Shown here in pieces: positions 8,670-43,493 of a stretch of DNA of 64,000 bases (positions are counted from its first letter, which is position 1; each line of letters opens with the position of its first letter). The stretch spans positions 4,600,381 through 4,664,380 of the forward strand of contig OZ025887.1 in assembly GCA_964019415.1 (NCBI GenBank), read 5' to 3'. A program made the position numbers and the translations under genes. Under the pieces are notes generated by a model, which was not told the origin of the DNA, did no database searches, and saw nothing but the letters and a program-made list of their open reading frames with translations. This stretch comes from Ianthella basta. Lineage: Eukaryota > Porifera > Demospongiae > Verongiida > Ianthellidae.

Positions 8670-9235
8670 AACTGATGATTGAGCCTGGCTCAGTTCAGCT
8701 GAGGTCTGAGGCTGGCTTGGTGCAGATGAGGACAGAGGCTAGTTTGATTTAGCTATTGATTAAGATTGCCCCAGTTTTGTTGACGACTGAGGATGGCTCA
8801 AGTCAGCCAACATCTGAGGCTGGCTATATAGATCCAGATGTCAACAGAGCCTGGATAGTTTCAGCCAACAACTGAGGCTGGTTTGGTTCAACTAATGACT
8901 GCGGTTGGCTCAGTCCAGCCAAAAACTGAGGCTGACTAGGTTCATCCTAGGTCTGAGGATGGCTTAGCCCAGCTTATAACTGAGGATGGCTCAGTTCAGC
9001 TGATGAATGATGTTGGCTTAGTGTAGATAATGACTGAGACTGGCTTGGTCCAGCTAAAAACTGTGGCTGGTTTAGTTCAGTCAACATCTGAGGCTGGATC
9101 AGTCCAGCCAATGCTAGGTTCAGTTGATATCTGAGTCTGGCTCTGCCCAGCTAACAACAGAAGCTGGTTTGGTTCAGTCGATGACTGCAGTTGTCTTGGC
9201 CCAACTAATTGAAGTTGGCTCAGTTCAGCTGATGC
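8670..9235 (-). repeat. Degenerate ~30-bp minisatellite, tail of the Roco-type gene
   Basis: GGCTGGCTTGGTTCAGCT and ACTGAGGCTGG phrases recur about every 30 bp. On the minus strand the unit reads roughly as a ten-residue SQPQLSAEL-like repeat, in phase with the kinase frame at the right end. Stops now interrupt it here. It continues at 9,445-9,700 on the far side of the MITE. Confidence 0.65.
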
Positions 9236-9444
9236 ACTGAGGGTAGTTTATTTAGCGATAGCACAGCCCCTGGAGATAACAAACAAATCAATCTATGTCC
9301 AAGACATTTCAATCCGTAGATCTTCTTCAACTGGTGTAAAACTGAGGATGAACTGAAGATCTATGGATCAAAATTTCCTGGACATAGATTGATTTGTTCG
9401 TGATCTCCAGTGGCTGTGCTATCGCTAAATAAACTACCCTCAGT
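9236..9444. mobile_element. Palindromic MITE
   Basis: A ~209-bp near-perfect hairpin. The left arm 9,236-9,326 pairs with the right arm 9,355-9,444, starting ACTGAGGGTAG and ending CTACCCTCAGT, with a ~28-bp loop. Only a few mismatches are visible in ~90 bp. It interrupts the ~30-bp minisatellite, so it is a later insertion. The immediate flanks are CA on the left and AC on the right; a two-base TA-type duplication is possible but not demonstrated. It has no coding capacity. Confidence 0.8.
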
Positions 9445-9700
9445 ACACTCTACGCAGCAATGAGCCTTTACCATGCACGGTAACTGAGCTCGAGGTTGGT
9501 ACAGCACTTCAGCTGATAACTGAGGCCGGCTTGGCTTAGCTAACAACTGAGGTTGAATCAGCTCAGCTGATGACTTAGGCTGCCTCAATTATGATGACGA
9601 TTGTGGTTTGCTTGGTTCAGATGATGATTAGGTTGGTTCAGTTCAGCTGTTGACTGGTGCTGGCTTGGTGCAGATGATGACTGAGGATGATTTGACCTAT
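9445..9700 (-). repeat. Degenerate ~30-bp minisatellite, proximal part
   Basis: Continuation of the minisatellite between the MITE and the kinase domain. On the minus strand it encodes proline-, glutamine- and serine-rich segments such as RPQLSAEV and SSAELIQPQLLAK, so this tail was once coding. Confidence 0.65.
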
Positions 9701-11003: not shown

Positions 11004-11011
11004 CACCATCC
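11004..11011. repeat. Left copy of 8-bp target-site duplication
   Basis: CACCATCC lies four bases outside the conserved ATTTCCTCAT end of the left inverted repeat. The identical octamer sits at 43,486-43,493, at the same four-base distance outside the right inverted repeat. Confidence 0.65.
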
Positions 11012-11205
11012 AGTTATTTCCTCATATTGTAAGAATCACAAAATAGGCTGACTCAGCACTTTCTCCATAAACTATAATAGTATTATTATACGTACATAGG
11101 GTACATATACACGTACAGTACTACATGAAGCTACATGGAATAGTGCATCTGATTTACAGTGCATGAAGGTCTATGGTGCATGTGCCTGTGGTGCCCTTGG
11201 TGCCC
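11012..11205 (+). repeat. Left terminal inverted repeat
   Basis: Aligns in inverted orientation with 43,290-43,485. Shared blocks, in order, are ATTTCCTCAT, AAATAGGCTGACTCAGCAC, TCTCC, ACGTACAGTACTACATGAAG, TACATGGAATAGTGC, TCTGATTTACAGTGC and TGAAGGTCTATGGTGC. Identity is roughly 80 percent by eye, with small indels. The outermost four bases differ (AGTT versus GGAT). Confidence 0.85.
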
Positions 11206-11364
11206 TAGGTGTTTATGGCACCACAGACAACATGGGCACCACAGACACCACAGACACCATGGGCACCACAGACACCATGGGCACCACAGATACCATGGGC
11301 ACCCATCTTAGTGTTTGTTGTGAGCATGGTGTCTGTTGTGCCATAGTATAGTCATCATCTAGCA
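11206..11364. repeat. Short GGCACC-type minisatellite between TIR and array
   Basis: CACCACAGACACCATGGG-like units of about 15-18 bp repeat between 11,218 and 11,310. A related but shorter stretch with GGCACCATGGATACCAAGG lies inside the right arm near 43,290. Both therefore belong to the element's subterminal structure. Confidence 0.7.
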
Positions 11365-14300
11365 TAGTGTCCTAGGGGGATAGTAGTCACCATTCAGTAG
11401 TATCCTAAGGGGATAGTAGTCACCATTCAGTAGTGTCCTAGGGGATAGTAGTCACCATTTAGTAGTGTCCTAGGGGGATAGTAGACACTATTTAGTAGTG
11501 TCCTGGGGGGATAGTAGTCACCATTTAGTAGTGTCCTAGGGGGATAGTAGTCACCATTCAGTAGTGTCCTAGGGGGATAGTAGTCACCATTCAGTAGTGT
11601 CCTAGGGGGATAGTAGTCACCATTCAGTAGTGTCCTAGGGGGATAGTAGTCACCATTCAGTAGTGTCCTAGGGGGATAGTAGTCACCATTCAGTAGTGTC
11701 CTAGGGGGATAGTAGTCACCATTCAGTAGTGTCCTAGGGGGATAGTAGTCACCATTCAGTAGTATCCTAAGGGGATAGTAGTCACCATTCAGTAGTGTCC
11801 TAGGGGGATAGTAGACACTATTTAGTAGTGTCCTGGGGGGATAGTAGTCACCATTTAGTAGTGTCCTAGGGGGATAGTAGTCACCATTCAGTAGTGTCCT
11901 AGGGGGATAGTAGTCACCATTCAGTAGTGTCCTAGGGGGATAGTAGTCACCATTCAGTAGTGTCCTAGGGGGATAGTAGTCACCATTCAGTAGTGTCCTA
12001 GGGGGATAGTAGTCACCATTCAGTAGTGTCCTAGGGGGATAGTAGTCACCATTCAGTAGTGTCCTAGGGGGATAGTAGTCACCATTCAGTAGTGTCCTAG
12101 GGGGATAGTAGTCACCATTCAGTAGTGTCCTAGGGGGATAGTAGTCACCATTTAGTAGTGTCCTAGGGGGATAGTAGTCACCATGCATTTAGTAATGTCC
12201 TAGGGGGATAGTAGTCACCATTCAGTAGTGTCCTAGGGGGATAATAGTCACCATTTAGTAGTGTCCTAGGGGGATAGTAGTCACCACTTAGTAGTGTCCT
12301 AGGGGGATAGTAGTCACCATTCAGTAGTGTCCTAGGGGGATAGTAGTCACCACTTAGTAGTGTCCTAGGGGGATAGTAGTCACCACTTAGTAGTGTCCTA
12401 GGGGGATAGTAGTCACCACTTAGTAGTGTCCTAGGGGGATAGTAGTCACCATTTAGTAGTGTCCTAGGGGGATAGTAGTCACCACTTAGTAGTGTCCTAG
12501 GGGGATAGTAGTCACCATTTAGTAGTGTCCTAGGGGGATAGTAGTCACCACTTAGTAGTGTCCTAGGGGGATAGTAGTCACCACTTAGTAGTGTCCTAGG
12601 GGGATAGTAGTCACCACTTAGTAGTGTCCTAGGGGGATAGTAGTCACCACTTAGTAATGTCCTAGGGGGATAGTAGTCACCATTTAGTAGTGTCCTAGGG
12701 GGATAATAGTCACCATTTAGTAGTGTCCTAGGGGGATAGTAGTCACCACTTAGTAGTGTCCTAGGGGGATAGTAGTCACCATTCAGTAGTGTCCTAGGGG
12801 GATAGTAGTCACCACTTAGTAGTGTCCTAGGGGGATAGTAGTCACCATTCAGTAGTGTCCTAGGGGGATAGTAGTCACCACTTAGTAGTGTCCTAGGGGG
12901 ATAGTAGTCACCATTTAGTAGTGTCCTAGGGGGATAGTAGTCACCACTTAGTAGTGTCCTAGGGGGATAGTAGTCACCATTCAGTAGTGTCCTAGGGGGA
13001 TAGTAGTCACCACTTAGTAGTGTCCTAGGGGGATAGTAGTCACCATTTAGTAGTGTCCTAGGGGGATAGTAGTCACCACTTAGTAGTGTCCTAGGGGGAT
13101 AGTAGTCACCATTCAGTAGTGTCCTAGGGGGATAGTAGTCACCACTTAGTAGTGTCCTAGGGGGATAGTAGTCACCATTTAGTAGTGTCCTAGGGGGATA
13201 GTAGTCACCATTTAGTAGTGTCCTAGGGGGATAGTAGTCACCACTTAGTAGTGTCCTAGGGGGATAGTAGTCACCACTTAGTAGTGTCCTAGGGGGATAG
13301 TAGTCACCATTTAGTAGTGTCCTAGGGGGATAGTAGTCACCATTTAGTAGTGTCCTAGGGGGATAGTAGTCACCACTTAGTAGTGTCCTAGGGGGATAGT
13401 AGTCACCATTTAGTAGTGTCCTAGGGGGATAGTAGTCACCACTTAGTAGTGTCCTAGGGGGATAGTAGTCACCATTTAGTAGTGTCCTAGGGGGATAGTA
13501 GTCACCACTTAGTAGTGTCCTAGGGGGATAGTAGTCACCATTCAGTAGTGTCCTAGGGGGATAGTAGTCACCACTTAGTAGTGTCCTAGGGGGATAGTAG
13601 TCACCATTCAGTAGTGTCCTAGGGGGATAGTAGTCACCACTTAGTAGTGTCCTAGGGGGATAGTAGTCACCATTTAGTAGTGTCCTAGGGGGATAGTAGT
13701 CACCACTTAGTAGTGTCCTAGGGGGATAGTAGTCACCATTCAGTAGTGTCCTAGGGGGATAGTAGTCACCACTTAGTAGTGTCCTAGGGGGATAGTAGTC
13801 ACCATTTAGTAGTGTCCTAGGGGGATAGTAGTCACCACTTAGTAGTGTCCTAGGGGGATAGTAGTCACCATTCAGTAGTGTCCTAGGGGGATAGTAGTCA
13901 CCACTTAGTAGTGTCCTAGGGGGATAGTAGTCACCATTTAGTAGTGTCCTAGGGGGATAGTAGTCACCATTTAGTAGTGTCCTAGGGGGATAGTAGTCAC
14001 CAAGCATTTAGTAGTGTCCTAGGGGGATAGTAGTCACTAAGCATTTAGTAGTGTCCTAGGGGGATAGTAGTCACTAAGCATTTAGTAGTGTCCTAGGGGG
14101 ATAGTAGTCACCATTTAGTAGTGTCCTAGGGGGATAGTAGTCACCACTTAGTAGTGTCCTAGGGGGATAGTAGTCACCAAGCATTTAGTAGTGTCCTAGG
14201 GGGATAGTAGTCACTAAGCATTTAGTAGTGTCCTAGGGGGATAGTAGTCACCATTTAGTAGTGTCCTAGGGGGATAGTAGTCACCAAGCATTTAGTAGTG

Positions 14301-17300
14301 TCCTAGGGGGATAGTAGTCACTAAGCATTTAGTAGTGTCCTAGGGGGATAGTAGTCACCATTTAGTAGTGTCCTAGGGGGATAGTAGTCACCATTTAGTA
14401 GTGTCCTAGGGGGATAGTAGTCACCATTTAGTAGTGTCCTAGGGGGATAGTAGTCACCATTTAGTAGTGTCCTAGGGGGATAGTAGTCACCATTTAGTAG
14501 TGTCCTAGGGGGATAGTAGTCACCACTTAGTAGTGTCCTAGGGGGATAGTAGTCACCATTCAGTAGTGTCCTAGGGGGATAGTAGTCACCATTTAGTAGT
14601 GTCCTAGGGGGATAGTAGTCACCATTCAGTAGTGTCCTAGGGGGATAGTAGTCACCATTCAGTAGTGTCCTAGGGGGATAGTAGTCACCATTCAGTAGTG
14701 TCCTAGGGGGATAGTAGTCACCATTCAGTAGTGTCCTAGGGGGATAGTAGTCACCATTCAGTAGTGTCCTAGGGGGATAGTAGTCACCATTCAGTAGTGT
14801 CCTAGGGGGATAGTAGTCACCATTCAGTAGTGTCCTAGGGGGATAGTAGTCACCATTTAGTAGTGTCCTAGGGGGATAGTAGTCACCATGCATTTAGTAA
14901 TGTCCTAGGGGGATAGTAGTCACCATTCAGTAGTGTCCTAGGGGGATAGTAGTCACCATTTAGTAGTGTCCTAGGGGGATAATAGTCACCATTTAGTAGT
15001 GTCCTAGGGGGATAGTAGTCACCACTTAGTAGTGTCCTAGGGGGATAGTAGTCACCATTTAGTAGTGTCCTAGGGGGATAGTAGTCACCACTTAGTAGTG
15101 TCCTAGGGGGATAGTAGTCACCACTTAGTAGTGTCCTAGGGGGATAGTAGTCACCACTTAGTAGTGTCCTAGGGGGATAGTAGTCACCATTTAGTAGTGT
15201 CCTAGGGGGATAGTAGTCACCACTTAGTAGTGTCCTAGGGGGATAGTAGTCACCATTCAGTAGTGTCCTAGGGGGATAGTAGTCACCACTTAGTAGTGTC
15301 CTAAGGGGATAGTAGTCACCATTTAGTAGTGTCCTAGGGGGATAGTAGTCACCATTCAGTAGTGTCCTAGGGGGATAGTAGTCACCACTTAGTAGTGTCC
15401 TAGGGGGATAGTAGTCACCAAGCATTTAGTAGTGTCCTAGGGGGATAGTAGTCACTAAGCATTTAGTAGTGTCCTAGGGGGATAGTAGTCACCAAGCATT
15501 TAGTAGTGTCCTAGGGGGATAGTAGTCACCACTTAGTAGTGTCCTAGGGGGATAGTAGTCACCATTCAGTAGTGTCCTAGGGGGATAGTAGTCACCAAGC
15601 ATTTAGTAGTGTCCTAGGGGGATAGTAGTCACTAAGCATTTAGTAGTGTCCTAGGGGGATAGTAGTCACCATTTAGTAGTGTCCTAGGGGGATAGTAGTC
15701 ACCATTCAGTAGTGTCCTAGGGGGATAGTAGTCACCACTTAGTAGTGTCCTAGGGGGATAGTAGTCACCATTCAGTAGTGTCCTAGGGGGATAGTAGTCA
15801 CCACTTAGTAGTGTCCTAGGGGGATAGTAGTCACCACTTAGTAGTGTCCTAGGGGGATAGTAGTCACCACTTAGTAGTGTCCTAGGGGGATAGTAGTCAC
15901 CATTCAGTAGTATCCTAAGGGGATAGTAGTCACCATTCAGTAGTGTCCTAGGGGATAGTAGTCACCATTTAGTAGTGTCCTAGGGGGATAGTAGACACTA
16001 TTTAGTAGTGTCCTGGGGGGATAGTAGTCACCATTTAGTAGTGTCCTAGGGGGATAGTAGTCACCATTTAGTAGTGTCCTAGGGGGATAGTAGTCACCAT
16101 TCAGTAATGTCCTAGGGGGATAGTAGTCACCATTCAGTAGTGTCCTAGGGGGATAGTAGTCACCATTTAGTAGTGTCCTAGGGGGATAATAGTCACCATT
16201 TAGTAGTGTCCTAGGGGGATAGTAGTCACCATTTAGTAGTGTCCTAGGGGGATAGTAGTCACCACTTAGTAGTGTCCTAGGGGGATAGTAGTCACCATTC
16301 AGTAGTGTCCTAGGGGGATAGTAGTCACCACTTAGTAGTGTCCTAGGGGGATAGTAGTCACCATTTAGTAGTGTCCTAGGGGGATAGTAGTCACCACTTA
16401 GTAGTGTCCTAGGGGGATAGTAGTCACCATTCAGTAGTGTCCTAGGGGGATAGTAGTCACCATTTAGTAGTGTCCTAGGGGGATAGTAGTCACCATTTAG
16501 TAGTGTCCTAGGGGGATAGTAGTCACCACTTAGTAGTGTCCTAGGGGGATAGTAGTCACCACTTAGTAGTGTCCTAGGGGGATAGTAGTCACCATTTAGT
16601 AGTGTCCTAGGGAAATAGTAGTCACCATTTAGTAGTGTCCTAGGGGAATAGTAGTCACCAAGCATTTAGTAGTGTCCTAGGGGGATAGTAGTCACCATTT
16701 AGTAGTGTCCTAGGGGGATAGTAGTCACCAAGCATTTAGTAGTGTCCTAGGGGGATAGTAGTCACTAAGCATTTAGTAGTGTCCTAGGGGGATAGTAGTC
16801 ACTAAGCATTTAGTAGTGTCCTAGGGGGATAGTAGTCACCATTCAGTAGTGTCCTAGGGGGATAGTAGTCACCACTTAGTAGTGTCCTAGGGGGATAGTA
16901 GTCACCATGCATTTAGTAATGTCCTAGGGGGATAGTAGTCACCATTCAGTAGTGTCCTAGGGGGATAGTAGTCACCATTTAGTAGTGTCCTAGGGGGATA
17001 ATAGTCACCATTTAGTAGTGTCCTAGGGGGATAGTAGTCACCACTTAGTAGTGTCCTAGGGGGATAGTAGTCACCATTCAGTAGTGTCCTAGGGGGATAG
17101 TAGTCACCACTTAGTAGTGTCCTAGGGGGATAGTAGTCACCATTCAGTAGTGTCCTAGGGGGATAGTAGTCACCACTTAGTAGTGTCCTAGGGGGATAGT
17201 AGTCACCATTTAGTAGTGTCCTAGGGGGATAGTAGTCACCACTTAGTAGTGTCCTAGGGGGATAGTAGTCACCATTCAGTAGTGTCCTAGGGGGATAGTA

Positions 17301-20300
17301 GTCACCACTTAGTAGTGTCCTAGGGGGATAGTAGTCACCATTTAGTAGTGTCCTAGGGGGATAGTAGTCACCATTTAGTAGTGTCCTAGGGGGATAGTAG
17401 TCACCAAGCATTTAGTAGTGTCCTAGGGGGATAGTAGTCACTAAGCATTTAGTAGTGTCCTAGGGGGATAGTAGTCACTAAGCATTTAGTAGTGTCCTAG
17501 GGGGATAGTAGTCACCATTCAGTAGTGTCCTAGGGGGATAGTAGTCACCATTCAGTAGTGTCCTAGGGGGATAGTAGTCACCATTCAGTAGTGTCCTAGG
17601 GGGATAGTAGTCACCACTTAGTAGTGTCCTAGGGGGATAGTAGTCACCATTCAGTAGTGTCCTAGGGGGATAGTAGTCACCATTCAGTAGTGTCCTAGGG
17701 GGATAGTAGTCACCATTCAGTAGTGTCCTAGGGGGATAGTAGTCACCATTCAGTAGTGTCCTAGGGGGATAGTAGTCACCATTCAGTAGTGTCCTAGGGG
17801 GATAGTAGTCACCACTTAGTAGTGTCCTAGGGGGATAGTAGTCACCATTCAGTAGTGTCCTAGGGGGATAGTAGTCACCATTCAGTAGTGTCCTAGGGGG
17901 ATAGTAGTCACCATTCAGTAGTGTCCTAGGGGGATAGTAGTCACCATTCAGTAGTGTCCTAGGGGGATAGTAGTCACCATTCAGTAGTGTCCTAGGGGGA
18001 TAGTAGTCACCATTTAGTAGTGTCCTAGGGAGATAGTAGTCACCATTTAGTAGTGTCCTAGGGGGATAGTAGTCACCAAGCATTTAGTAGTGTCCTAGGG
18101 GGATAGTAGTCACTAAGCATTTAGTAGTGTCCTAGGGGGATAGTAGTCACTAAGCATTTAGTAGTGTCCTAGGGGGATAGTAGTCACCATTCAGTAGTGT
18201 CCTAGGGGGATAGTAGTCACCATTCAGTAGTGTCCTAGGGGGATAGTAGTCACCATTCAGTAGTGTCCTAGGGGGATAGTAGTCACCACTTAGTAGTGTC
18301 CTAGGGGGATAGTAGTCACCATTTAGTAGTGTCCTAGGGGGATAGTAGTCACCATTCAGTAGTGTCCTAGGGGGATAGTAGTCACCACTTAGTAGTGTCC
18401 TAGGGGGATAGTAGTCACCATTCAGTAGTGTCCTAGGGGGATAGTAGTCACCATTTAGTAGTGTCCTAGGGGGATAGTAGTCACCAAGCATTTAGTAGTG
18501 TCCTAGGGGGATAGTAGTCACTAAGCATTTAGTAGTGTCCTAGGGGGATAGTAGTCACCATTTAGTAGTGTCCTAGGGGGATAGTAGTCACCATTCAGTA
18601 GTGTCCTAGGGGGATAGTAGTCACCACTTAGTAGTGTCCTAGGGGGATAGTAGTCACCATTTAGTAGTGTCCTAGGGGGATAGTAGTCACCATTCAGTAG
18701 TGTCCTAGGGGGATGGTAGTCACCACTTAGTAGTGTCCTAGGGGGATAGTAGTCACCATTTAGTAGTGTCCTAGGGGGATAGTAGTCACCATTCAGTAGT
18801 GTCCTAGGGGGATAGTAGTCACCATTTAGTAGTGTCCTAGGGGGATAGTAGTCACCATTCAGTAGTGTCCTAGGGGGATAGTAGTCACCATTCAGTAGTG
18901 TCCTAGGGGGATAGTAGTCACCATTCAGTAGTGTCCTAGGGGGATAGTAGTCACCATTCAGTAGTGTCCTAGGGGGATAGTAGTCACCATTCAGTAGTGT
19001 CCTAGGGGGATAGTAGTCACCATTCAGTAGTGTCCTAGGGGGATAGTAGTCACCATTCAGTAGTGTCCTAGGGGGATAGTAGTCACCATTCAGTAGTGTC
19101 CTAGGGGGATAGTAGTCACCATTCAGTAGTGTCCTAGGGGGATAGTAGTCACCATTCAGTAGTGTCCTAGGGGGATAGTAGTCACCATTCAGTAGTGTCC
19201 TAGGGGGATAGTAGTCACCATTCAGTAGTGTCCTAGGGGGATAGTAGTCACCATTCAGTAGTGTCCTAGGGGGATAGTAGTCACCATTCAGTAGTGTCCT
19301 AGGGGGATAGTAGTCACCATTTAGTAGTGTCCTAGGGGGATAGTAGTCACCATTTAGTAGTGTCCTAGGGGGATAGTAGTCACCACTTAGTAGTGTCCTA
19401 GGGGGATAGTAGTCACCATTTAGTAGTGTCCTAGGGGGATAGTAGTCACCACTTAGTAGTGTCCTAGGGGGATAGTAGTCACCACTTAGTAGTGTCCTAG
19501 GGGGATAGTAGTCACCATTTAGTAGTGTCCTAGGGGGATAGTAGTCACCACTTAGTAGTGTCCTAGGGGGATAGTAGTCACCACTTAGTAGTGTCCTAGG
19601 GGGATAGTAGTCACCATTTAGTAGTGTCCTAGGGGGATAGTAGTCACCACTTAGTAGTGTCCTAGGGGGATAGTAGTCACCATTTAGTAGTGTCCTAGGG
19701 GGATAGTAGTCACCACTTAGTAGTGTCCTAGGGGGATAGTAGTCACCACTTAGTAGTGTCCTAGGGGGATAGTAGTCACCATTTAGTAGTGTCCTAGGGG
19801 GATAGTAGTCACCACTTAGTAGTGTCCTAGGGGGATAGTAGTCACCATTTAGTAGTGTCCTAGGGGGATAGTAGTCACCATTTAGTAGTGTCCTAGGGGG
19901 ATAGTAGTCACCACTTAGTAGTGTCCTAGGGGGATAGTAGTCACCATTTAGTAGTGTCCTAGGGGGATAGTAGTCACCATTTAGTAGTGTCCTAGGGGGA
20001 TAGTAGTCACCACTTAGTAGTGTCCTAGGGGGATAGTAGTCACCATTTAGTAGTGTCCTAGGGGGATAGTAGTCACCACTTAGTAGTGTCCTAGGGGGAT
20101 AGTAGTCACCATTCAGTAGTGTCCTAGGGGGATAGTAGTCACCACTTAGTAGTGTCCTAGGGGGATAGTAGTCACCATTTAGTAGTGTCCTAGGGGGATA
20201 GTAGTCACCACTTAGTAGTGTCCTAGGGGGATAGTAGTCACCATTCAGTAGTGTCCTAGGGGGATAGTAGTCACCACTTAGTAGTGTCCTAGGGGGATAG

Positions 20301-23300
20301 TAGTCACCATTTAGTAGTGTCCTAGGGGGATAGTAGTCACCACTTAGTAGTGTCCTAGGGGGATAGTAGTCACCACTTAGTAGTGTCCTAGGGGGATAGT
20401 AGTCACCATTTAGTAGTGTCCTAGGGGGATAGTAGTCACCACTTAGTAGTGTCCTAGGGGGATAGTAGTCACCATTTAGTAGTGTCCTAGGGGGATAGTA
20501 GTCACCACTTAGTAGTGTCCTAGGGGGATAGTAGTCACCACTTAGTAGTGTCCTAGGGGGATAGTAGTCACCATTTAGTAGTGTCCTAGGGGGATAGTAG
20601 TCACCACTTAGTAGTGTCCTAGGGGGATAGTAGTCACCATTTAGTAGTGTCCTAGGGGGATAGTAGTCACCATTTAGTAGTGTCCTAGGGGGATAGTAGT
20701 CACCACTTAGTAGTGTCCTAGGGGGATAGTAGTCACCATTTAGTAGTGTCCTAGGGGGATAGTAGTCACCATTTAGTAGTGTCCTAGGGGGATAGTAGTC
20801 ACCACTTAGTAGTGTCCTAGGGGGATAGTAGTCACCATTTAGTAGTGTCCTAGGGGGATAGTAGTCACCACTTAGTAGTGTCCTAGGGGGATAGTAGTCA
20901 CCATTCAGTAGTGTCCTAGGGGGATAGTAGTCACCACTTAGTAGTGTCCTAGGGGGATAGTAGTCACCATTTAGTAGTGTCCTAGGGGGATAGTAGTCAC
21001 CACTTAGTAGTGTCCTAGGGGGATAGTAGTCACCATTCAGTAGTGTCCTAGGGGGATAGTAGTCACCACTTAGTAGTGTCCTAGGGGGATAGTAGTCACC
21101 ATTTAGTAGTGTCCTAGGGGGATAGTAGTCACCATTTAGTAGTGTCCTAGGGGGATAGTAGTCACCAAGCATTTAGTAGTGTCCTAGGGGGATAGTAGTC
21201 ACTAAGCATTTAGTAGTGTCCTAGGGGGATAGTAGTCACTAAGCATTTAGTAGTGTCCTAGGGGGATAGTAGTCACCATTTAGTAGTGTCCTAGGGGGAT
21301 AGTAGTCACCACTTAGTAGTGTCCTAGGGGGATAGTAGTCACCAAGCATTTAGTAGTGTCCTAGGGGGATAGTAGTCACTAAGCATTTAGTAGTGTCCTA
21401 GGGGGATAGTAGTCACCATTTAGTAGTGTCCTAGGGGGATAGTAGTCACCATTTAGTAGTGTCTTAGGGGGATAATAGTCACCACTTAGTAGTGTCCTAG
21501 GGGGATAGTAGTCACCATTTAGTAGTGTCCTAGGGGGATAGTAGTCACCATTTAGTAGTGTCCTAGGGGGATAGTAGTCACCATTCAGTAGTGTCCTAGG
21601 GGGATAGTAGTCACCACTTAGTAGTGTCCTAAGGGGATAGTAGTCACCACTTAGTAGTGTCCTAGGGGGATAGTAGTCACCACTTAGTAGTGTCCTAGGG
21701 GGATAGTAGTCACCACTTAGTAGTGTCCTAGGGGGATAGTAGTCACCATTCAGTAGTGTCCTAGGGGGATAATAGTCACCATTTAGTAGTGTCCTAGGGG
21801 GATAGTAGTCACCATGCATTTAGTAATGTCCTAGGGGGATAGTAGTCACCATTCAGTAGTGTCCTAGGGGGATAGTAGTCACCATTTAGTAGTGTCCTAG
21901 GGGGATAGTAGTCACCACTTAGTAGTGTCCTAGGGGGATAGTAGTCACCATTTAGTAGTGTCCTAGGGGGATAGTAGTCACCACTTAGTAGTGTCCTAGG
22001 GGGATAGTAGTCACCATTCAGTAGTGTCCTAGGGGGATAGTAGTCACCACTTAGTAGTGTCCTAGGGGGATAGTAGTCACCATTTAGTAGTGTCCTAGGG
22101 GGATAGTAGTCACCACTTAGTAGTGTCCTAGGGGGATAGTAGTCACCATTTAGTAGTGTCCTAGGGGGATAGTAGTCACCATTTAGTAGTGTCCTAGGGG
22201 GATAGTAGTCACCATTCAGTAGTGTCCTAGGGGGATAGTAGTCACCATTCAGTAGTGTCCTAGGGGGATAGTAGTCACCATTCAGTAGTGTCCTAGGGGG
22301 ATAGTAGTCACCATTTAGTAGTGTCCTAGGGGGATAGTAGTCACCATGCATTTAGTAATGTCCTAGGGGGATAGTAGTCACCATTCAGTAGTGTCCTAGG
22401 GGGATAGTAGTCACCATTTAGTAGTGTCCTAGGGGGATAATAGTCACCATTTAGTAGTGTCCTAGGGGGATAGTAGTCACCACTTAGTAGTGTCCTAAGG
22501 GGATAGTAGTCACCACTTAGTAGTGTCCTAGGGGGATAGTAGTCACCACTTAGTAGTGTCCTAGGGGGATAGTAGTCACCACTTAGTAGTGTCCTAGGGG
22601 GATAGTAGTCACCATTTAGTAGTGTCCTAGGGGGATAATACTCACCATTTAGTAGTGTCCTAGGGGGATAGTAGTCACCACTTAGTAGTGTCCTAAGGGG
22701 ATAGTAGTCACCACTTAGTAGTGTCCTAGGGGGATAGTAGTCACCACTTAGTAGTGTCCTAGGGGGATAGTAGTCACCACTTAGTAGTGTCCTAGGGGGA
22801 TAGTAGTCACCATTTAGTAGTGTCCTAGGGGGATAGTAGTACCACTTAGTAGTGTCCTAGGGGGATAGTAGTCACCATTCAGTAGTGTCCTAGGGGGATA
22901 ATAGTCACCATTTAGTAGTGTCCTAGGGGGATAGTAGTCACCATGCATTTAGTAATGTCCTAGGGGGATAGTAGTCACCATTCAGTAGTGTCCTAGGGGG
23001 ATAATAGTCACCATTTAGTAGTGTCCTAGGGGGATAATAGTCACCATTTAGTAGTGTCCTAGGGGGATAGTAGTCACCACTTAGTAGTGTCCTAGGGGAA
23101 TAGTAGTCACCATTTAGTAGTGTCCTAGGGGGATAGTAGTCACCACTTAGTAGTGTCCTAGGGGGATAGTAGTCACCATTCAGTAGTGTCCTAGGGGGAT
23201 AGTAGTCACCACTTAGCAGTGTCCTAGGGGGATAGTAGTCACCATTTAGTAGTGTCCTAGGGGGATAGTAGTCACCACTTAGTAGTGTCCTAGGGGGATA

Positions 23301-32300: not shown

Positions 32301-35300
32301 AGTAGTGTCCTAGGGGGATAGTAGTCACCATTTAGTAGTGTCCTAGGGGGATAGTAGTCACCAAGCATTTAGTAGTGTCCTAGGGGGATAGTAGTCACTA
32401 AGCATTTAGTAGTGTCCTAGGGGGATAGTAGTCACTAAGCATTTAGTAGTGTCCTAGGGGGATAGTAGTCACCATTCAGTAGTGTCCTAGGGGGATAGTA
32501 GTCACCACTTAGTAGTGTCCTAGGGGGATAGTAGTCACCATGCATTTAGTAATGTCCTAGGGGGATAGTAGTCACCATTCAGTAGTGTCCTAGGGGGATA
32601 GTAGTCACCATTTAGTAGTGTCCTAGGGGGATAATAGTCACCATTTAGTAGTGTCCTAGGGGGATAGTAGTCACCACTTAGTAGTGTCCTAGGGGGATAG
32701 TAGTCACCATTCAGTAGTGTCCTAGGGGGATAGTAGTCACCACTTAGTAGTGTCCTAGGGGGATAGTAGTCACCATTCAGTAGTGTCCTAGGGGGATAGT
32801 AGTCACCACTTAGTAGTGTCCTAGGGGGATAGTAGTCACCATTTAGTAGTGTCCTAGGGGGATAGTAGTCACCACTTAGTAGTGTCCTAGGGGGATAGTA
32901 GTCACCATTCAGTAGTGTCCTAGGGGGATAGTAGTCACCACTTAGTAGTGTCCTAGGGGGATAGTAGTCACCATTTAGTAGTGTCCTAGGGGGATAGTAG
33001 TCACCATTTAGTAGTGTCCTAGGGGGATAGTAGTCACCAAGCATTTAGTAGTGTCCTAGGGGGATAGTAGTCACTAAGCATTTAGTAGTGTCCTAGGGGG
33101 ATAGTAGTCACTAAGCATTTAGTAGTGTCCTAGGGGGATAGTAGTCACCATTCAGTAGTGTCCTAGGGGGATAGTAGTCACCATTCAGTAGTGTCCTAGG
33201 GGGATAGTAGTCACCATTCAGTAGTGTCCTAGGGGGATAGTAGTCACCACTTAGTAGTGTCCTAGGGGGATAGTAGTCACCATTCAGTAGTGTCCTAGGG
33301 GGATAGTAGTCACCATTCAGTAGTGTCCTAGGGGGATAGTAGTCACCATTCAGTAGTGTCCTAGGGGGATAGTAGTCACCATTCAGTAGTGTCCTAGGGG
33401 GATAGTAGTCACCATTCAGTAGTGTCCTAGGGGGATAGTAGTCACCACTTAGTAGTGTCCTAGGGGGATAGTAGTCACCATTCAGTAGTGTCCTAGGGGG
33501 ATAGTAGTCACCATTCAGTAGTGTCCTAGGGGGATAGTAGTCACCATTCAGTAGTGTCCTAGGGGGATAGTAGTCACCATTCAGTAGTGTCCTAGGGGGA
33601 TAGTAGTCACCATTCAGTAGTGTCCTAGGGGGATAGTAGTCACCATTTAGTAGTGTCCTAGGGAGATAGTAGTCACCATTTAGTAGTGTCCTAGGGGGAT
33701 AGTAGTCACCAAGCATTTAGTAGTGTCCTAGGGGGATAGTAGTCACTAAGCATTTAGTAGTGTCCTAGGGGGATAGTAGTCACCATTCAGTAGTGTCCTA
33801 GGGGGATAGTAGTCACCATTCAGTAGTGTCCTAGGGGGATAGTAGTCACCATTCAGTAGTGTCCTAGGGGGATAGTAGTCACCACTTAGTAGTGTCCTAG
33901 GGGGATAGTAGTCACCATTTAGTAGTGTCCTAGGGGGATAGTAGTCACCATTCAGTAGTGTCCTAGGGGGATAGTAGTCACCACTTAGTAGTGTCCTAGG
34001 GGGATAGTAGTCACCATTCAGTAGTGTCCTAGGGGGATAGTAGTCACCATTTAGTAGTGTCCTAGGGGGATAGTAGTCACCAAGCATTTAGTAGTGTCCT
34101 AGGGGGATAGTAGTCACTAAGCATTTAGTAGTGTCCTAGGGGGATAGTAGTCACCATTTAGTAGTGTCCTAGGGGGATAGTAGTCACCATTCAGTAGTGT
34201 CCTAGGGGGATAGTAGTCACCACTTAGTAGTGTCCTAGGGGGATAGTAGTCACCATTTAGTAGTGTCCTAGGGGGATAGTAGTCACCATTCAGTAGTGTC
34301 CTAGGGGGATGGTAGTCACCACTTAGTAGTGTCCTAGGGGGATAGTAGTCACCATTTAGTAGTGTCCTAGGGGGATAGTAGTCACCATTCAGTAGTGTCC
34401 TAGGGGGATAGTAGTCACCATTTAGTAGTGTCCTAGGGGGATAGTAGTCACCATTCAGTAGTGTCCTAGGGGGATAGTAGTCACCATTCAGTAGTGTCCT
34501 AGGGGGATAGTAGTCACCATTCAGTAGTGTCCTAGGGGGATAGTAGTCACCATTCAGTAGTGTCCTAGGGGGATAGTAGTCACCATTCAGTAGTGTCCTA
34601 GGGGGATAGTAGTCACCATTCAGTAGTGTCCTAGGGGGATAGTAGTCACCATTCAGTAGTGTCCTAGGGGGATAGTAGTCACCATTCAGTAGTGTCCTAG
34701 GGGGATAGTAGTCACCATTCAGTAGTGTCCTAGGGGGATAGTAGTCACCATTCAGTAGTGTCCTAGGGGGATAGTAGTCACCATTCAGTAGTGTCCTAGG
34801 GGGATAGTAGTCACCATTCAGTAGTGTCCTAGGGGGATAGTAGTCACCATTCAGTAGTGTCCTAGGGGGATAGTAGTCACCATTCAGTAGTGTCCTAGGG
34901 GGATAGTAGTCACCATTCAGTAGTGTCCTAGGGGGATAGTAGTCACCATTCAGTAGTGTCCTAGGGGGATAGTAGTCACCATTCAGTAGTGTCCTAGGGG
35001 GATAGTAGTCACCATTCAGTAGTGTCCTAGGGGGATAGTAGTCACCATTCAGTAGTGTCCTAGGGGGATAGTAGTCACCATTCAGTAGTGTCCTAGGGGG
35101 ATAGTAGTCACCATTTAGTAGTGTCCTAGGGGGATAGTAGTCACCACTTAGTAGTGTCCTAGGGGGATAGTAGTCACCATTTAGTAGTGTCCTAGGGGGA
35201 TAGTAGTCACCACTTAGTAGTGTCCTAGGGGGATAGTAGTCACCACTTAGTAGTGTCCTAGGGGGATAGTAGTCACCATTTAGTAGTGTCCTAGGGGGAT

Positions 35301-38300
35301 AGTAGTCACCACTTAGTAGTGTCCTAGGGGGATAGTAGTCACCACTTAGTAGTGTCCTAGGGGGATAGTAGTCACCATTTAGTAGTGTCCTAGGGGGATA
35401 GTAGTCACCACTTAGTAGTGTCCTAGGGGGATAGTAGTCACCATTCAGTAGTGTCCTAGGGGGATAGTAGTCACCATTCAGTAGTGTCCTAGGGGGATAG
35501 TAGTCACCATTCAGTAGTGTCCTAGGGGGATAGTAGTCACCATTCAGTAGTGTCCTAGGGGGATAGTAGTCACCACTTAGTAGTGTCCTAGGGGGATAGT
35601 AGTCACCATTCAGTAGTGTCCTAGGGGGATAGTAGTCACCATTCAGTAGTGTCCTAGGGGGATAGTAGTCACCATTCAGTAGTGTCCTAGGGGGATAGTA
35701 GTCACCATTCAGTAGTGTCCTAGGGGGATAGTAGTCACCATTCAGTAGTGTCCTAGGGGGATAGTAGTCACCATTTAGTAGTGTCCTAGGGAGATAGTAG
35801 TCACCATTTAGTAGTGTCCTAGGGGGATAGTAGTCACCAAGCATTTAGTAGTGTCCTAGGGGGATAGTAGTCACTAAGCATTTAGTAGTGTCCTAGGGGG
35901 ATAGTAGTCACTAAGCATTTAGTAGTGTCCTAGGGGGATAGTAGTCACCATTCAGTAGTGTCCTAGGGGGATAGTAGTCACCATTCAGTAGTGTCCTAGG
36001 GGGATAGTAGTCACCATTCAGTAGTGTCCTAGGGGGATAGTAGTCACCACTTAGTAGTGTCCTAGGGGGATAGTAGTCACCATTTAGTAGTGTCCTAGGG
36101 GGATAGTAGTCACCATTCAGTAGTGTCCTAGGGGGATAGTAGTCACCACTTAGTAGTGTCCTAGGGGGATAGTAGTCACCATTCAGTAGTGTCCTAGGGG
36201 GATAGTAGTCACCATTTAGTAGTGTCCTAGGGGGATAGTAGTCACCAAGCATTTAGTAGTGTCCTAGGGGGATAGTAGTCACTAAGCATTTAGTAGTGTC
36301 CTAGGGGGATAGTAGTCACCATTTAGTAGTGTCCTAGGGGGACAGTAGTCACCATTCAGTAGTGTCCTAGGGGGATAGTAGTCACCACTTAGTAGTGTCC
36401 TAGGGGGATAGTAGTCACCATTTAGTAGTGTCCTAGGGGGATAGTAGTCACCATTCAGTAGTGTCCTAGGGGGATGGTAGTCACCACTTAGTAGTGTCCT
36501 AGGGGGATAGTAGTCACCATTTAGTAGTGTCCTAGGGGGATAGTAGTCACCATTCAGTAGTGTCCTAGGGGGATAGTAGTCACCATTTAGTAGTGTCCTA
36601 GGGGGATAGTAGTCACCATTCAGTAGTGTCCTAGGGGGATAGTAGTCACCATTCAGTAGTGTCCTAGGGGGATAGTAGTCACCATTCAGTAGTGTCCTAG
36701 GGGGATAGTAGTCACCATTCAGTAGTGTCCTAGGGGGATAGTAGTCACCATTCAGTAGTGTCCTAGGGGGATAGTAGTCACCATTCAGTAGTGTCCTAGG
36801 GGGATAGTAGTCACCATTCAGTAGTGTCCTAGGGGGATAGTAGTCACCATTCAGTAGTGTCCTAGGGGGATAGTAGTCACCATTCAGTAGTGTCCTAGGG
36901 GGATAGTAGTCACCATTCAGTAGTGTCCTAGGGGGATAGTAGTCACCATTCAGTAGTGTCCTAGGGGGATAGTAGTCACCATTCAGTAGTGTCCTAGGGG
37001 GATAGTAGTCACCATTCAGTAGTGTCCTAGGGGGATAGTAGTCACCATTCAGTAGTGTCCTAGGGGGATAGTAGTCACCATTTAGTAGTGTCCTAGGGGG
37101 ATAGTAGTCACCATTTAGTAGTGTCCTAGGGGGATAGTAGTCACCACTTAGTAGTGTCCTAGGGGGATAGTAGTCACCATTTAGTAGTGTCCTAGGGGGA
37201 TAGTAGTCACCACTTAGTAGTGTCCTAGGGGGATAGTAGTCACCACTTAGTAGTGTCCTAGGGGGATAGTAGTCACCATTTAGTAGTGTCCTAGGGGGAT
37301 AGTAGTCACCACTTAGTAGTGTCCTAGGGGGATAGTAGTCACCACTTAGTAGTGTCCTAGGGGGATAGTAGTCACCATTTAGTAGTGTCCTAGGGGGATA
37401 GTAGTCACCACTTAGTAGTGTCCTAGGGGGATAGTAGTCACCATTTAGTAGTGTCCTAGGGGGATAGTAGTCACCACTTAGTAGTGTCCTAGGGGGATAG
37501 TAGTCACCACTTAGTAGTGTCCTAGGGGGATAGTAGTCACCATTTAGTAGTGTCCTAGGGGGATAGTAGTCACCACTTAGTAGTGTCCTAGGGGGATAGT
37601 AGTCACCATTTAGTAGTGTCCTAGGGGGATAGTAGTCACCATTTAGTAGTGTCCTAGGGGGATAGTAGTCACCACTTAGTAGTGTCCTAGGGGGATAGTA
37701 GTCACCATTTAGTAGTGTCCTAGGGGGATAGTAGTCACCATTTAGTAGTGTCCTAGGGGGATAGTAGTCACCACTTAGTAGTGTCCTAGGGGGATAGTAG
37801 TCACCATTTAGTAGTGTCCTAGGGGGATAGTAGTCACCACTTAGTAGTGTCCTAGGGGGATAGTAGTCACCATTCAGTAGTGTCCTAGGGGGATAGTAGT
37901 CACCACTTAGTAGTGTCCTAGGGGGATAGTAGTCACCATTCAGTAGTGTCCTAGGGGGATAGTAGTCACCACTTAGTAGTGTCCTAGGGGGATAGTAGTC
38001 ACCATTTAGTAGTGTCCTAGGGGGATAGTAGTCACCACTTAGTAGTGTCCTAGGGGGATAGTAGTCACCACTTAGTAGTGTCCTAGGGGGATAGTAGTCA
38101 CCATTTAGTAGTGTCCTAGGGGGATAGTAGTCACCACTTAGTAGTGTCCTAGGGGGATAGTAGTCACCATTTAGTAGTGTCCTAGGGGGATAGTAGTCAC
38201 CACTTAGTAGTGTCCTAGGGGGATAGTAGTCACCACTTAGTAGTGTCCTAGGGGGATAGTAGTCACCATTTAGTAGTGTCCTAGGGGGATAGTAGTCACC

Positions 38301-41300
38301 ACTTAGTAGTGTCCTAGGGGGATAGTAGTCACCATTTAGTAGTGTCCTAGGGGGATAGTAGTCACCATTTAGTAGTGTCCTAGGGGGATAGTAGTCACCA
38401 CTTAGTAGTGTCCTAGGGGGATAGTAGTCACCATTTAGTAGTGTCCTAGGGGGATAGTAGTCACCATTTAGTAGTGTCCTAGGGGGATAGTAGTCACCAC
38501 TTAGTAGTGTCCTAGGGGGATAGTAGTCACCATTTAGTAGTGTCCTAGGGGGATAGTAGTCACCACTTAGTAGTGTCCTAGGGGGATAGTAGTCACCATT
38601 CAGTAGTGTCCTAGGGGGATAGTAGTCACCACTTAGTAGTGTCCTAGGGGGATAGTAGTCACCATTTAGTAGTGTCCTAGGGGGATAGTAGTCACCACTT
38701 AGTAGTGTCCTAGGGGGATAGTAGTCACCATTCAGTAGTGTCCTAGGGGGATAGTAGTCACCACTTAGTAGTGTCCTAGGGGGATAGTAGTCACCATTTA
38801 GTAGTGTCCTAGGGGGATAGTAGTCACCATTTAGTAGTGTCCTAGGGGGATAGTAGTCACCAAGCATTTAGTAGTGTCCTAGGGGGATAGTAGTCACTAA
38901 GCATTTAGTAGTGTCCTAGGGGGATAGTAGTCACTAAGCATTTAGTAGTGTCCTAGGGGGATAGTAGTCACCATTTAGTAGTGTCCTAGGGGGATAGTAG
39001 TCACCACTTAGTAGTGTCCTAGGGGGATAGTAGTCACCAAGCATTTAGTAGTGTCCTAGGGGGATAGTAGTCACTAAGCATTTAGTAGTGTCCTAGGGGG
39101 ATAGTAGTCACCATTTAGTAGTGTCCTAGGGGGATAGTAGTCACCATTTAGTAGTGTCCTAGGGGGATAATAGTCACCACTTAGTAGTGTCCTAGGGGGA
39201 TAGTAGTCACCATTTAGTAGTGTCCTAGGGGGATAGTAGTCACCATTTAGTAGTGTCCTAGGGGGATAGTAGTCACCATTCAGTAGTGTCCTAGGGGGAT
39301 AGTAGTCACCACTTAGTAGTGTCCTAAGGGGATAGTAGTCACCACTTAGTAGTGTCCTAGGGGGATAGTAGTCACCACTTAGTAGTGTCCTAGGGGGATA
39401 GTAGTCACCACTTAGTAGTGTCCTAGGGGGATAGTAGTCACCATTCAGTAGTGTCCTAGGGGGATAATAGTCACCATTTAGTAGTGTCCTAGGGGGATAG
39501 TAGTCACTATGCATTTAGTAATGTCCTAGGGGGATAGTAGTCACCATTCAGTAGTGTCCTAGGGGGATAGTAGTCACCATTTAGTAGTGTCCTAGGGGGA
39601 TAGTAGTCACCACTTAGTAGTGTCCTAGGGGGATAGTAGTCACCATTTAGTAGTGTCCTAGGGGGATAGTAGTCACCACTTAGTAGTGTCCTAGGGGGAT
39701 AGTAGTCACCATTCAGTAGTGTCCTAGGGGGATAGTAGTCACCACTTAGTAGTGTCCTAGGGGGATAGTAGTCACCATTTAGTAGTGTCCTAGGGGGATA
39801 GTAGTCACCACTTAGTAGTGTCCTAGGGGGATAGTAGTCACCATTTAGTAGTGTCCTAGGGGGATAGTAGTCACCATTTAGTAGTGTCCTAGGGGGATAG
39901 TAGTCACCATTCAGTAGTGTCCTAGGGGGATAGTAGTCACCATTCAGTAGTGTCCTAGGGGGATAGTAGTCACCATTCAGTAGTGTCCTAGGGGGATAAT
40001 AGTCACCATTTAGTAGTGTCCTAGGGGGATAGTAGTCACCATGCATTTAGTAATGTCCTAGGGGGATAGTAGTCACCATTCAGTAGTGTCCTAGGGGGAT
40101 AGTAGTCACCATTTAGTAGTGTCCTAGGGGGATAATACTCACCATTTAGTAGTGTCCTAGGGGGATAGTAGTCACCACTTAGTAGTGTCCTAAGGGGATA
40201 GTAGTCACCACTTAGTAGTGTCCTAGGGGGATAGTAGTCACCACTTAGTAGTGTCCTAGGGGGATAGTAGTCACCACTTAGTAGTGTCCTAGGGGGATAG
40301 TAGTCACCATTTAGTAGTGTCCTAGGGGGATAGTAGTACCACTTAGTAGTGTCCTAGGGGGATAGTAGTCACCATTCAGTAGTGTCCTAGGGGGATAATA
40401 GTCACCATTTAGTAGTGTCCTAGGGGGATAGTAGTCACCATGCATTTAGTAATGTCCTAGGGGGATAGTAGTCACCATTCAGTAGTGTCCTAGGGGGATA
40501 ATAGTCACCATTTAGTAGTGTCCTAGGGGGATAATAGTCACCATTTAGTAGTGTCCTAGGGGGATAGTAGTCACCACTTAGTAGTGTCCTAGGGGAATAG
40601 TAGTCACCATTTAGTAGTGTCCTAGGGGGATAGTAGTCACCACTTAGTAGTGTCCTAGGGGGATAGTAGTCACCATTCAGTAGTGTCCTAGGGGGATAGT
40701 AGTCACCACTTAGCAGTGTCCTAGGGGGATAGTAGTCACCATTTAGTAGTGTCCTAGGGGGATAGTAGTCACCACTTAGTAGTGTCCTAGGGGGATAGTA
40801 GTCACCATTTAGTAGTGTCCTAGGGGGATAGTAGTCACCACTTAGTAGTGTCCTAGGGGGATAGTAGTCACCACTTAGTAGTGTCCTAGGGGGATAGTAG
40901 TCACCATTTAGTAGTGTCCTAGGGGGATAGTAGTCACCACTTAGTAGTGTCCTAGGGGGATAGTAGTCACCATTCAGTAGTGTCCTAGGGGGATAGTAGT
41001 CACCACTTAGTAGTGTCCTAGGGGGATAGTAGTCACCATTTAGTGGTGTCCTAGGGGAATAGTAGTCACCACTTAGTAGTGTCCTAGGGGGATAGTAGTC
41101 ACCACTTAGTAGTGTCCTAGGGGGATAGTAGTCACCATTCAGTAGTGTCCTAGGGGGATAGTAGTCACCATTCAGTAGTGTCCTAGGGGATTAGTAGTCA
41201 CCATTCAGTAGTGTCCTAGGGGGATAGTAGTCACCATTCAGTAGTGTCCTAGGGGGATAGTAGTCACCACTTAGTAGTGTCCTAGGGGGATAGTAGTCAC

Positions 41301-43253
41301 CATTTAGTAGTGTCCTAGGGGGATAGTAGTCACCACTTAGTAGTGTCCTAGGGGAATAGTAGTCACCATTTAGTAGTGTCCTAGGGGGATAGTAGTCACC
41401 ACTTAGTAGTGTCCTAGGGGGATAGTAGTCACCATTCAGTAGTGTCCTAGGGGGATAGTAGTCACCACTTAGTAGTGTCCTAGGGGGATAGTAGTCACCA
41501 CTTAGTAGTGTCCTAGGGGGATAGTAGTCACCACTTAGTAGTGTCCTAGGGGAATAGTAGTCACCATTTAGTAGTGTCCTAGGGGGATAGTAGTCACCAC
41601 TTAGTAGTGTCCTAGGGGGATAGTAGTCACCATTTAGTAGTGTCCTAGGGGGATAGTAGTCACCACTTAGTAGTGTCCTAGGGGGATAGTAGTCACCATT
41701 CAGTAGTGTCCTAGGGGGATAGTAGTCACCACTTAGTAGTGTCCTAGGGGGATAGTAGTCACCATTTAGTGGTGTCCTAGGGGAATAGTAGTCACCACTT
41801 AGTAGTGTCCTAGGGGGATAGTAGTCACCACTTAGTAGTGTCCTAGGGGGATAGTAGTCACCATTCAGTAGTGTCCTAGGGGGATAGTAGTCACCATTCA
41901 GTAGTGTCCTAGGGGATTAGTAGTCACCATTCAGTAGTGTCCTAGGGGGATAGTAGTCACCATTCAGTAGTGTCCTAGGGGGATAGTAGTCACCACTTAG
42001 TAGTGTCCTAGGGGGATAGTAGTCACCACTTAGTAGTGTCCTAGGGGGATAGTAGTCACCACTTAGTAGTGTCCTAGGGGGATAGTAGTCACCATTTAGT
42101 AGTGTCCTAGGGGGATAGTAGTCACCACTTAGTAGTGTCCTAGGGGGATAGTAGTCACCATTTAGTAGTGTCCTAGGGGGATAGTAGTCACCACTTAGTA
42201 GTGTCCTAGGGGGATAGTAGTCACCATTCAGTAGTGTCCTAGGGGGATAGTAGTCACCACTTAGTAGTGTCCTAGGGGGATAGTAGTCACCACTTAGTAG
42301 TGTCCTAGGGGGATAGTAGTCACCACTTAGTAGTGTCCTAGGGGGATAGTAGTCACCATTTAGTAGTGTCCTAGGGGGATAGTAGTACCACTTAGTAGTG
42401 TCCTAGGGGGATAGTAGTCACCATTCAGTAGTGTCCTAGGGGGATAATAGTCACCATTTAGTAGTGTCCTAGGGGGATAGTAGTCACCATGCATTTAGTA
42501 ATGTCCTAGGGGGATAGTAGTCACCATTCAGTAGTGTCCTAGGGGGATAATAGTCACCATTTAGTAGTGTCCTAGGGGGATAATAGTCACCATTTAGTAG
42601 TGTCCTAGGGGGATAGTAGTCACCACTTAGTAGTGTCCTAGGGGAATAGTAGTCACCATTTAGTAGTGTCCTAGGGGGATAGTAGTCACCACTTAGTAGT
42701 GTCCTAGGGGGATAGTAGTCACCATTCAGTAGTGTCCTAGGGGGATAGTAGTCACCACTTAGTAGTGTCCTAGGGGGATAGTAGTCACCACTTAGTAGTG
42801 TCCTAGGGGGATAGTAGTCACCACTTAGTAGTGTCCTAGGGGGATAGTAGTCACCATTTAGTAGTGTCCTAGGGGGATAGTAGTCACCACTTAGTAGTGT
42901 CCTAGGGGGATAGTAGTCACCATTCAGTAGTGTCCTAGGGGGATAGTAGTCACCACTTAGTAGTGTCCTAGGGGGATAGTAGTCACCATTTAGTGGTGTC
43001 CTAGGGGAATAGTAGTCACCACTTAGTAGTGTCCTAGGGGGATAGTAGTCACCACTTAGTAGTGTCCTAGGGGGATAGTAGTCACCATTCAGTAGTGTCC
43101 TAGGGGGATAGTAGTCACCATTCAGTAGTGTCCTAGGGGGATAGTAGTCACCATTCAGTAGTGTCCTAGGGGGATAGTAGTCACCATTCAGTAGTGTCCT
43201 AGGGGAATAGTAGTCACCATGCATTTAGTAGTGTCCTAGGGTAATAGTGCCCT
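11365..43253. repeat. 33-bp satellite array, about 960 units, with higher-order structure
   Basis: The unit is 33 bp and, read on the minus strand, encodes GDYYPPRTLLN or GDYYPPRTLLS. Units fall into three main sequence types, distinguished by CATTTAG, CATTCAG or CACTTAG. Rare units are 37 bp (carrying AAGCATTTAG or ATGCATTTAG) or 32 bp. Marker blocks repeat over kilobases: a GTATCCTAAGG unit followed by GTAGACACTATTTAG recurs near 15,910, 24,327 and 31,543 (offsets 8,417 and 7,216 bp). Open frames up to 883 codons arise because 33 is divisible by three and one frame lacks stops; I do not regard them as genes. Confidence 0.95.
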
Positions 43254-43289
43254 ATAGACGCCTATTATGTAGCTAGACCAGATACACCA

Positions 43290-43485
43290 AGGGCACCATG
43301 GATACCAAGGATACCACAGGCACCATAGACCTTCAGCACTGTAAATCAGACGCACTATTCCATGTACCTTCATGTAGTACTGTACGTATTATATACCCTA
43401 TGTATAATACTACTATTTTACTTTACGGAGACAGTGCTGAGTCAGCCTATTTCGTGGTTCTAAATTTAATGATGAGGAAATATCC
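43290..43485 (-). repeat. Right terminal inverted repeat
   Basis: Inverted counterpart of 11,012-11,205. It ends ATGAGGAAAT at 43,481, then ATCC, then the octamer. Only 66 bp separate the end of this arm from the TIM21/COA1-like start codon, so the arm probably lies within that gene's promoter or 5' leader. Confidence 0.85.
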
Positions 43486-43493
43486 CACCATCC
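43486..43493. repeat. Right copy of 8-bp target-site duplication
   Basis: CACCATCC, identical to 11,004-11,011 and in the same orientation, four bases beyond the conserved end of the right inverted repeat. Confidence 0.65.

Follow-up and report, generated by a model that had tools for sequence, protein, structure and literature searches.

A 33-bp satellite array of 32 kb in the genome of the sponge Ianthella basta lies between the terminal inverted repeats (TIRs) of an element that is bounded on both sides by the octamer CACCATCC (Table 1). The window, i.e., the whole stretch of 64,000 nucleotides analyzed here, corresponds to C20:4600381-4664380 in the contig naming of this report, and genome-wide searches covered an assembly of 209 Mb in 96 contigs. 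The arrangement is probably the product of three events: insertion of a TIR element at CACCATCC, growth of its units in place to about 955, and replacement of one flank at the edge of the target site duplication (TSD). A non-autonomous TIR DNA transposon with GGTTATTTCCTCAT-like termini, arms of ~190 bp and an 8-bp TSD would have inserted at the octamer, and the inserted copy would have brought, or soon gained, a few 33-bp units inside its arms. Expansion of these units would have included the duplication of several-kb blocks (with a spacing of ~7.2 kb dominant), which unequal exchange or replication slippage would be expected to produce, and one of the two flanks would have been replaced.

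Table 1. Coordinates of features in the window and of other arrays of the 33-bp unit in the genome
Feature	Position	Strand	Remarks
Decayed 27-bp satellite relic	8672..9689	+	Tandem repeat search; stops ~9 bp before the kinase fragment
Dispersed inverted-repeat element, approx. 240 bp	9233-9473		Within the 27-bp satellite relic
Roco/LRRK-type (COR-kinase) gene fragment, 1.3 kb	about 9698-11012	-	In two broken frames, with cuts at 9698 and the octamer
Left octamer CACCATCC	11004..11011	+	Target site that belongs to the kinase gene family; one copy each in L067 and L068
Left TIR arm	11012..11205	+	Outer end AGTTATTTCCTCAT, then subterminal GCTGACTCAGC; 84% to right arm; arm alignment
Short GCACCACAGACACC-type minisatellite inside left arm	11217..11303	+	TRF
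33-bp satellite array	11349..43248	+	~955 units, period 33, 95% matches (Tandem Repeats Finder)
Right TIR arm	43290..43485	-	Outer end ...ATGAGGAAATATCC at 43485; arm match and alignment
Right octamer CACCATCC	43486..43493	+	Abuts right TIR; then CTATAATAGG..., not kinase gene
Array	C7:7825205-7911845		Apparent 87 kb; ends read, interior known from matches only
Array	C9 from about 6826780 to beyond 6832200		
Array	C10:1837894-1838605		
Array	C18:5558983-5561714		
Array	C20:5194674-5195591		

Ends of the element and the flanking octamers

The left arm, used as a query, retrieves the right arm with 84% identity (E 6.7e-51), and the subterminal GCTGACTCAGC is common to both. Judged by eye, the like of the GCACCACAGACACC-type minisatellite of the left arm occurs inside the right arm and at relics on C8 and C12. 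The earlier note had described the satellite as lying between inverted repeats and an 8-bp direct repeat, which is confirmed here, and had placed the octamers four bases beyond the arms, which is not. The bases between ATTTCCTCAT and the octamer are AGTT on the left and GGAT on the right, read inward. When eight ends (the right end of the window and seven others) were aligned at their terminal ...CC in a register set by hand, the mean pairwise agreement, taken from per-column values, was 0.75 for the terminal 14 bases inside and only 0.28 for the adjoining 20 outside. Because the ends agree well inside and little outside, the four bases are the element's own terminus, and CACCATCC directly abuts both ends. 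The other genomic copies of the arm terminate in ...AACC, from which the terminal bases in the window differ slightly (...AACT on the left, ...ATCC on the right). The terminal inverted repeats are thus situated at the very ends of the element, as in a non-autonomous, MITE-like TIR transposon.

That the octamers would hardly match by chance had been argued from their symmetric placement, and the window bears this out: random octamer pairs drawn from its flanks were identical in 510 of 2,000,000 draws (2.6e-4; 4^-8 = 1.5e-5), and neither CACCATCC nor its complement occurs elsewhere in the 31.5 kb of flanks. The sequences outside the two octamers differ, which rules out the alternative, raised in the earlier note, of a longer duplication that includes the octamer. 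There is good support for a TIR element with an 8-bp TSD.

The array and its relatives in the genome

Cutting the array by a unit motif gave 955 cut points and 954 units, close to the ~960 of the earlier note. Only 37 distinct unit sequences are present; 846 units are 33 bases long, 98 have 37 bases and 10 have 32. The unit motif on the opposite strand has no match within the array, which is in a single orientation. Unit diversity is very low and the array is very young. Recurring exact 400-mers span 87% of it, with 7216 bp as the commonest spacing, which points to late growth, partly by duplication of several-kb blocks. No match to the unit motif was found among prokaryote genomes or viral contigs, and none came from scanning the window for Rfam families and tRNAs or three frames to the right of the array for Pfam domains. 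Further tandem repeats in the window lie at 190-1126 and 63352-63845 (periods 205 and 63), and in the 63-bp repeat one frame is open over the full length and a second over most of it.

Arm searches found other ends at C12:6840585, in a near-identical C6 copy, and at C21:5565151, C8:7137329, and C3:7703029. The AGTGCTGAGTCAGCNTATTTCGTG pattern, with up to three mismatches, has 20 matches in the genome, including the two arms of the window and a sister group on C14, C5, and C8, and the reversed control has none. Weak scores (profile E 1.3e-5 to 0.16) leave nine of the 20 as matches that may be due to chance; the arm profile was built from most of the ends that it later matched, so its scores for those ends are not independent evidence. 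Two arms framing an array occur in the window only. The other well-supported matches are single ends, except for a rearranged copy on C21 and a short one at C12:7580297, which has both arms and no units but is degraded, with unrecognizable outermost bases. The short copies expected by the earlier note are thus represented by this degraded one, and no TSD could be shown at any other family member. Sequences considered as TSD partners of the single ends were rejected, as none lies beside TIR-like sequence: an exact TTGGACCC at L044:1746 is part of a 15-base shared stretch with no TIR adjoining.

Elements of the hAT, P, and Merlin superfamilies have 8-bp-type TSDs; their termini are presumably unlike those of the present element. 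Mutator/MULE elements have a MULE transposase and usually a 9-bp TSD, against 8 bp here, and although MULE domains exist in the genome, they are not near the ends: none of the 13 MULE matches, nor the single KDZ match, lies within 100 kb of an element end. Among the 20 AGTGCTGAGTCAGCNTATTTCGTG places, the only inverted pair within 500 kb is that of the window, and no transposase domain was detected in the 66 frames scanned of 130 listed, from the surroundings of four relic ends and of four arrays. An autonomous partner with the same TIRs, for which the earlier note proposed a search, was not found among these places, frames, and MULE and KDZ matches.

Whether the 33-bp unit belongs to the family was examined in seven other stretches, namely C12/C6, C8, C21, C3, C14, C5, and the short C12 copy (the sister ends on C8 were left out). 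The C12 and C6 ends are counted once because their surroundings (L041, C12:6836000-6845900; L042, C6:7763500-7773400) are 99.98% identical over 9.9 kb, having been duplicated very recently or entered twice in the assembly. This end is 77% identical to the left arm and carries a 33-bp unit just inside the arm, in the same position and orientation as in the left arm of the window, with a score of 30 against a shuffle maximum of 18 (0/500 shuffles). At the remaining ends no unit rises above shuffles: as good a score was reached in 213/500 at C8, 53/500 at C21, and 266/500 at C3, in 442/500 and 493/500 at the sister ends on C14 and C5, and in 459/500 at the short copy C12:7580297. The C8 sequence had appeared by eye to be a plausible relic of the unit and was rejected on this count. 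A second satellite, 57 bp x 24 copies, is situated at L041:3046-4426, ~70 bp inside the unit of the C12/C6 TIR end.

Nearly the same unit forms at least five other arrays, on C7, C9, C10, C18, and at C20:5194674. Array counts are lower bounds, from 38 scored among 87 candidates and from those matches that were listed; a 79-base unit pattern has 1141 matches, and the C9 array is known from the first places of that search alone. The arm profile found no match at E up to 10 in the flanks read at these five arrays (left/right: C7 9.2/2.1 kb, C10 4.4/4.8 kb, C18 4.0/3.2 kb, C20:5.19 Mb 4.2/4.8 kb, and C9 0.9 kb/none, its right edge lying beyond the part read), and genome-wide arm searches listed no match at any of them. 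A TIR frame is, on this evidence, not the rule. The TIR-less arrays may have lost their ends by decay, which has been proposed for Xenopus miDNA4, or may have lacked them from the start. A 1.6-kb inverted repeat around the C10 array, ~1-2.3 kb outside it, was considered as a TIR pair and rejected: its gene-sized copies (L038 1856-3434 and 7402-9020, 81% identical) hold long frames and were interpreted as an inverted gene pair. At C20:5.19 Mb, an imperfect direct repeat, ACTCAAGGACCC...AATGCCAC (L040:4530-4568 and 5084-5118), bounds a block of 33-bp units, which looks as if it had been inserted.

These arrays give weight to the reverse order of events, in which 33-bp arrays would have spread by another route (e.g., re-insertion of circular DNA) and the TIR element, as a passenger, would have captured a piece that then grew. 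We regard this as a serious possibility, albeit not the favored one. The C7 array is larger than that of the window and may be older, given that its units agree less well (84-87% in the parts read, vs 95%); no unit is detectable in six of the seven other family stretches; and a review reports that capture of a pre-existing repeat was proposed for miDNA4 of Xenopus (PMC12628747). Against it stands the C12/C6 end, which is old and has the unit where the left arm of the window has it. The proposal that the element was the seed of the satellite draws on the same end, whereas the six stretches without a unit count against it; it is plausible and not proven.

Insertion site and flanks

The left flank of the element is a fragment of a Roco-type kinase gene. 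It matches Pkinase at 3.3e-19 and COR-B with 22.1 bits, under the cut-off of 27, and is 90% identical to C20:4297273-4298621. Roco-type kinase genes form a cluster at C20:3.93-4.36 Mb, ~0.25-0.7 Mb from the fragment. To obtain the empty site, both flanks of the window were joined at the octamer and used as a query. The right half matched itself only. The left half has seven related places, all on C20, three at 93-95% and four at 74-76% identity (one of these four ends 61 bases before the insertion site), and five of the seven were compared (L067 to L071). L067 and L068 run unbroken through the site (...GGCTCACCATCC continued by ACAGACTG...) with a single CACCATCC, and are unoccupied paralogous sites. 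L069 has CATCATCC at the insertion site, and the more distant L070 and L071 are likewise uninterrupted there. Together with the adjoining L072, L067 contains a frame of 1321 codons, which the domains found in the window's pieces assign to the Roco type.

Sequence beyond the right octamer does not continue the kinase gene, and no other part of the window contains the missing half. The 13 matches to this half genome-wide include no orphan that starts at the cut; partial ones start at query 218 (82%) and 229 (75%), and four more are short. The claim of a non-autonomous TIR insertion with an 8-bp duplication thus holds with regard to the ends, which abut the octamers, and to the unoccupied L067 and L068, but the event was more complicated than a simple insertion, as the left flank is not continued by the right one. 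These results indicate that an exchange of one flank took place precisely where the duplication ends. Either the kinase side would be the original target and its right half lost, or the right side would be original and the 1.3-kb kinase fragment a repair filler acquired via the shared octamer. In either case, the exactness would be explained by repair that used the octamer as microhomology. Two other routes were rejected: homologous exchange between two array-bearing elements, which would be expected to leave differing octamers, and a move of the kinase half to a nearby place, since it is not in the window and no orphan starting at the cut is among the 13 genomic matches.

The left cut of the kinase fragment is sharp as well, because eight paralogous matches also start at 9698-9699. 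Relatives of the 27-bp satellite next to it are found on C1, C7, C9, and C55. The neighborhood to the left of the array is broken more than once. Elsewhere in the window, a 680-codon open frame at 1327-3369 (-) contains a reverse transcriptase domain, and a RACK1 gene is present at 45639-46682. Among the 120 listed of 7167 matches to this gene, those with an organism name that score highest in identity are from Dysidea avara (81%) and Ephydatia muelleri (80%), in keeping with a sponge, and the highest identity of any is 97%.

The mixed flanks could in principle be older than the element, if it landed by chance at an existing junction between the kinase fragment and the right flank; both would then be original, simply the two sides of the pre-insertion site, with no later rearrangement. 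The equally abrupt left end of the fragment, beside the 27-bp satellite, would fit such a history. We consider it unlikely, as insertion within a few bases of the junction would be a rare coincidence, with a chance of about one in a thousand or less (estimated, not computed). A long and very uniform array, with flanks that are not neighbors in the paralogues, would fit an assembly artefact joining two loci via a collapsed or expanded satellite, but this is improbable, as a shared octamer is not expected of two unrelated insertions. Least probable of all is an origin by no transposition, with the ends of related repeats inverted by chance or foldback and the octamer a coincidence or repair microhomology, since the 8/8 match abutting both ends has a chance of 2.6e-4 or less and unoccupied paralogues exist, even though most other family members are single ends and none was found at the other arrays.

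Known systems and the origin of the satellite

Helitrons are not known to have TIRs or TSDs, unlike the element in the window, which has both. The central repeats of Helitrons and Helentrons (e.g., oyster CgHINE) resemble it, in the sections of the literature drawn upon, as a mobile element with a central satellite-like array (PMC12628747, PMC9659126). That small TIR elements can carry an internal tandem repeat which grows into a satellite is an established idea in the same sections (PMC12628747, PMC9659126). A case in point is miDNA4, a MITE of Xenopus tropicalis with an internal tandem repeat that expands; its longer arrays are, as far as those sections go, believed to have lost the TIRs, a loss that would fit the TIR-less arrays here, but miDNA4 belongs to Tc1/mariner, whereas the present element has an 8-bp TSD (PMC12628747, PMC9659126).

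The closest of the published systems compared is Tetris/TIR-220 of Drosophila virilis. In the excerpts of its description available, Tetris is a non-autonomous TIR element with few complete copies and TSDs of 8-9 bp; no autonomous partner was found, a MITE relative has the same ends, and its tandem repeats grow into satellite arrays seen flanked by Tetris ends (PMC4079207). The likeness extends to the non-autonomous nature, the few complete copies, the TSD in the 8-bp range, the lack of a partner found, and the framed arrays. By the same excerpts, however, the Tetris repeats lie within the TIRs (foldback), in contrast to one single-orientation array between TIRs in the window; the Tetris unit is about 220 bp, vs 33 bp; and it shares a 37-bp stretch with the TIR, a unit-arm likeness that is not established here (PMC4079207). 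Mirrored repeats inside long arms, as in foldback elements of the Tetris, FB, and Galileo type, are absent from the window, given the lack of opposite-strand matches, and within its arms there is only a short ACC-rich repeat. Nothing on the 33-bp repeat or on TIR-framed satellites of sponges was found in the mostly open-access literature. To the known satellites framed by transposable elements, the element of the window adds a long, young array in a recognizable frame with one flank rearranged.

A further step, which is doubtful, is that the entire array-bearing element, arms and kilobases of satellite included, moves as one unit. If so, a transposase would disperse blocks of satellite, rather than single repeats, between gene neighborhoods, and the TIR-less arrays would be older landings with decayed ends. 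The rearranged flank would then be a trace of repair, in which the octamer at the end of the element, once paired with an identical octamer elsewhere, primes the copying of a gene fragment.

The beginnings of satellites are seldom visible because their frames decay. Here, a young array of ~955 units still lies in its frame of TIRs and TSD between ordinary genes, together with five arrays of the same unit in one genome for which no frame was found, and the direction of the link, from element to satellite or the reverse, is therefore testable across relatives. A second clue, on repair at transposon insertions, comes from the flank that was replaced precisely at the TSD.
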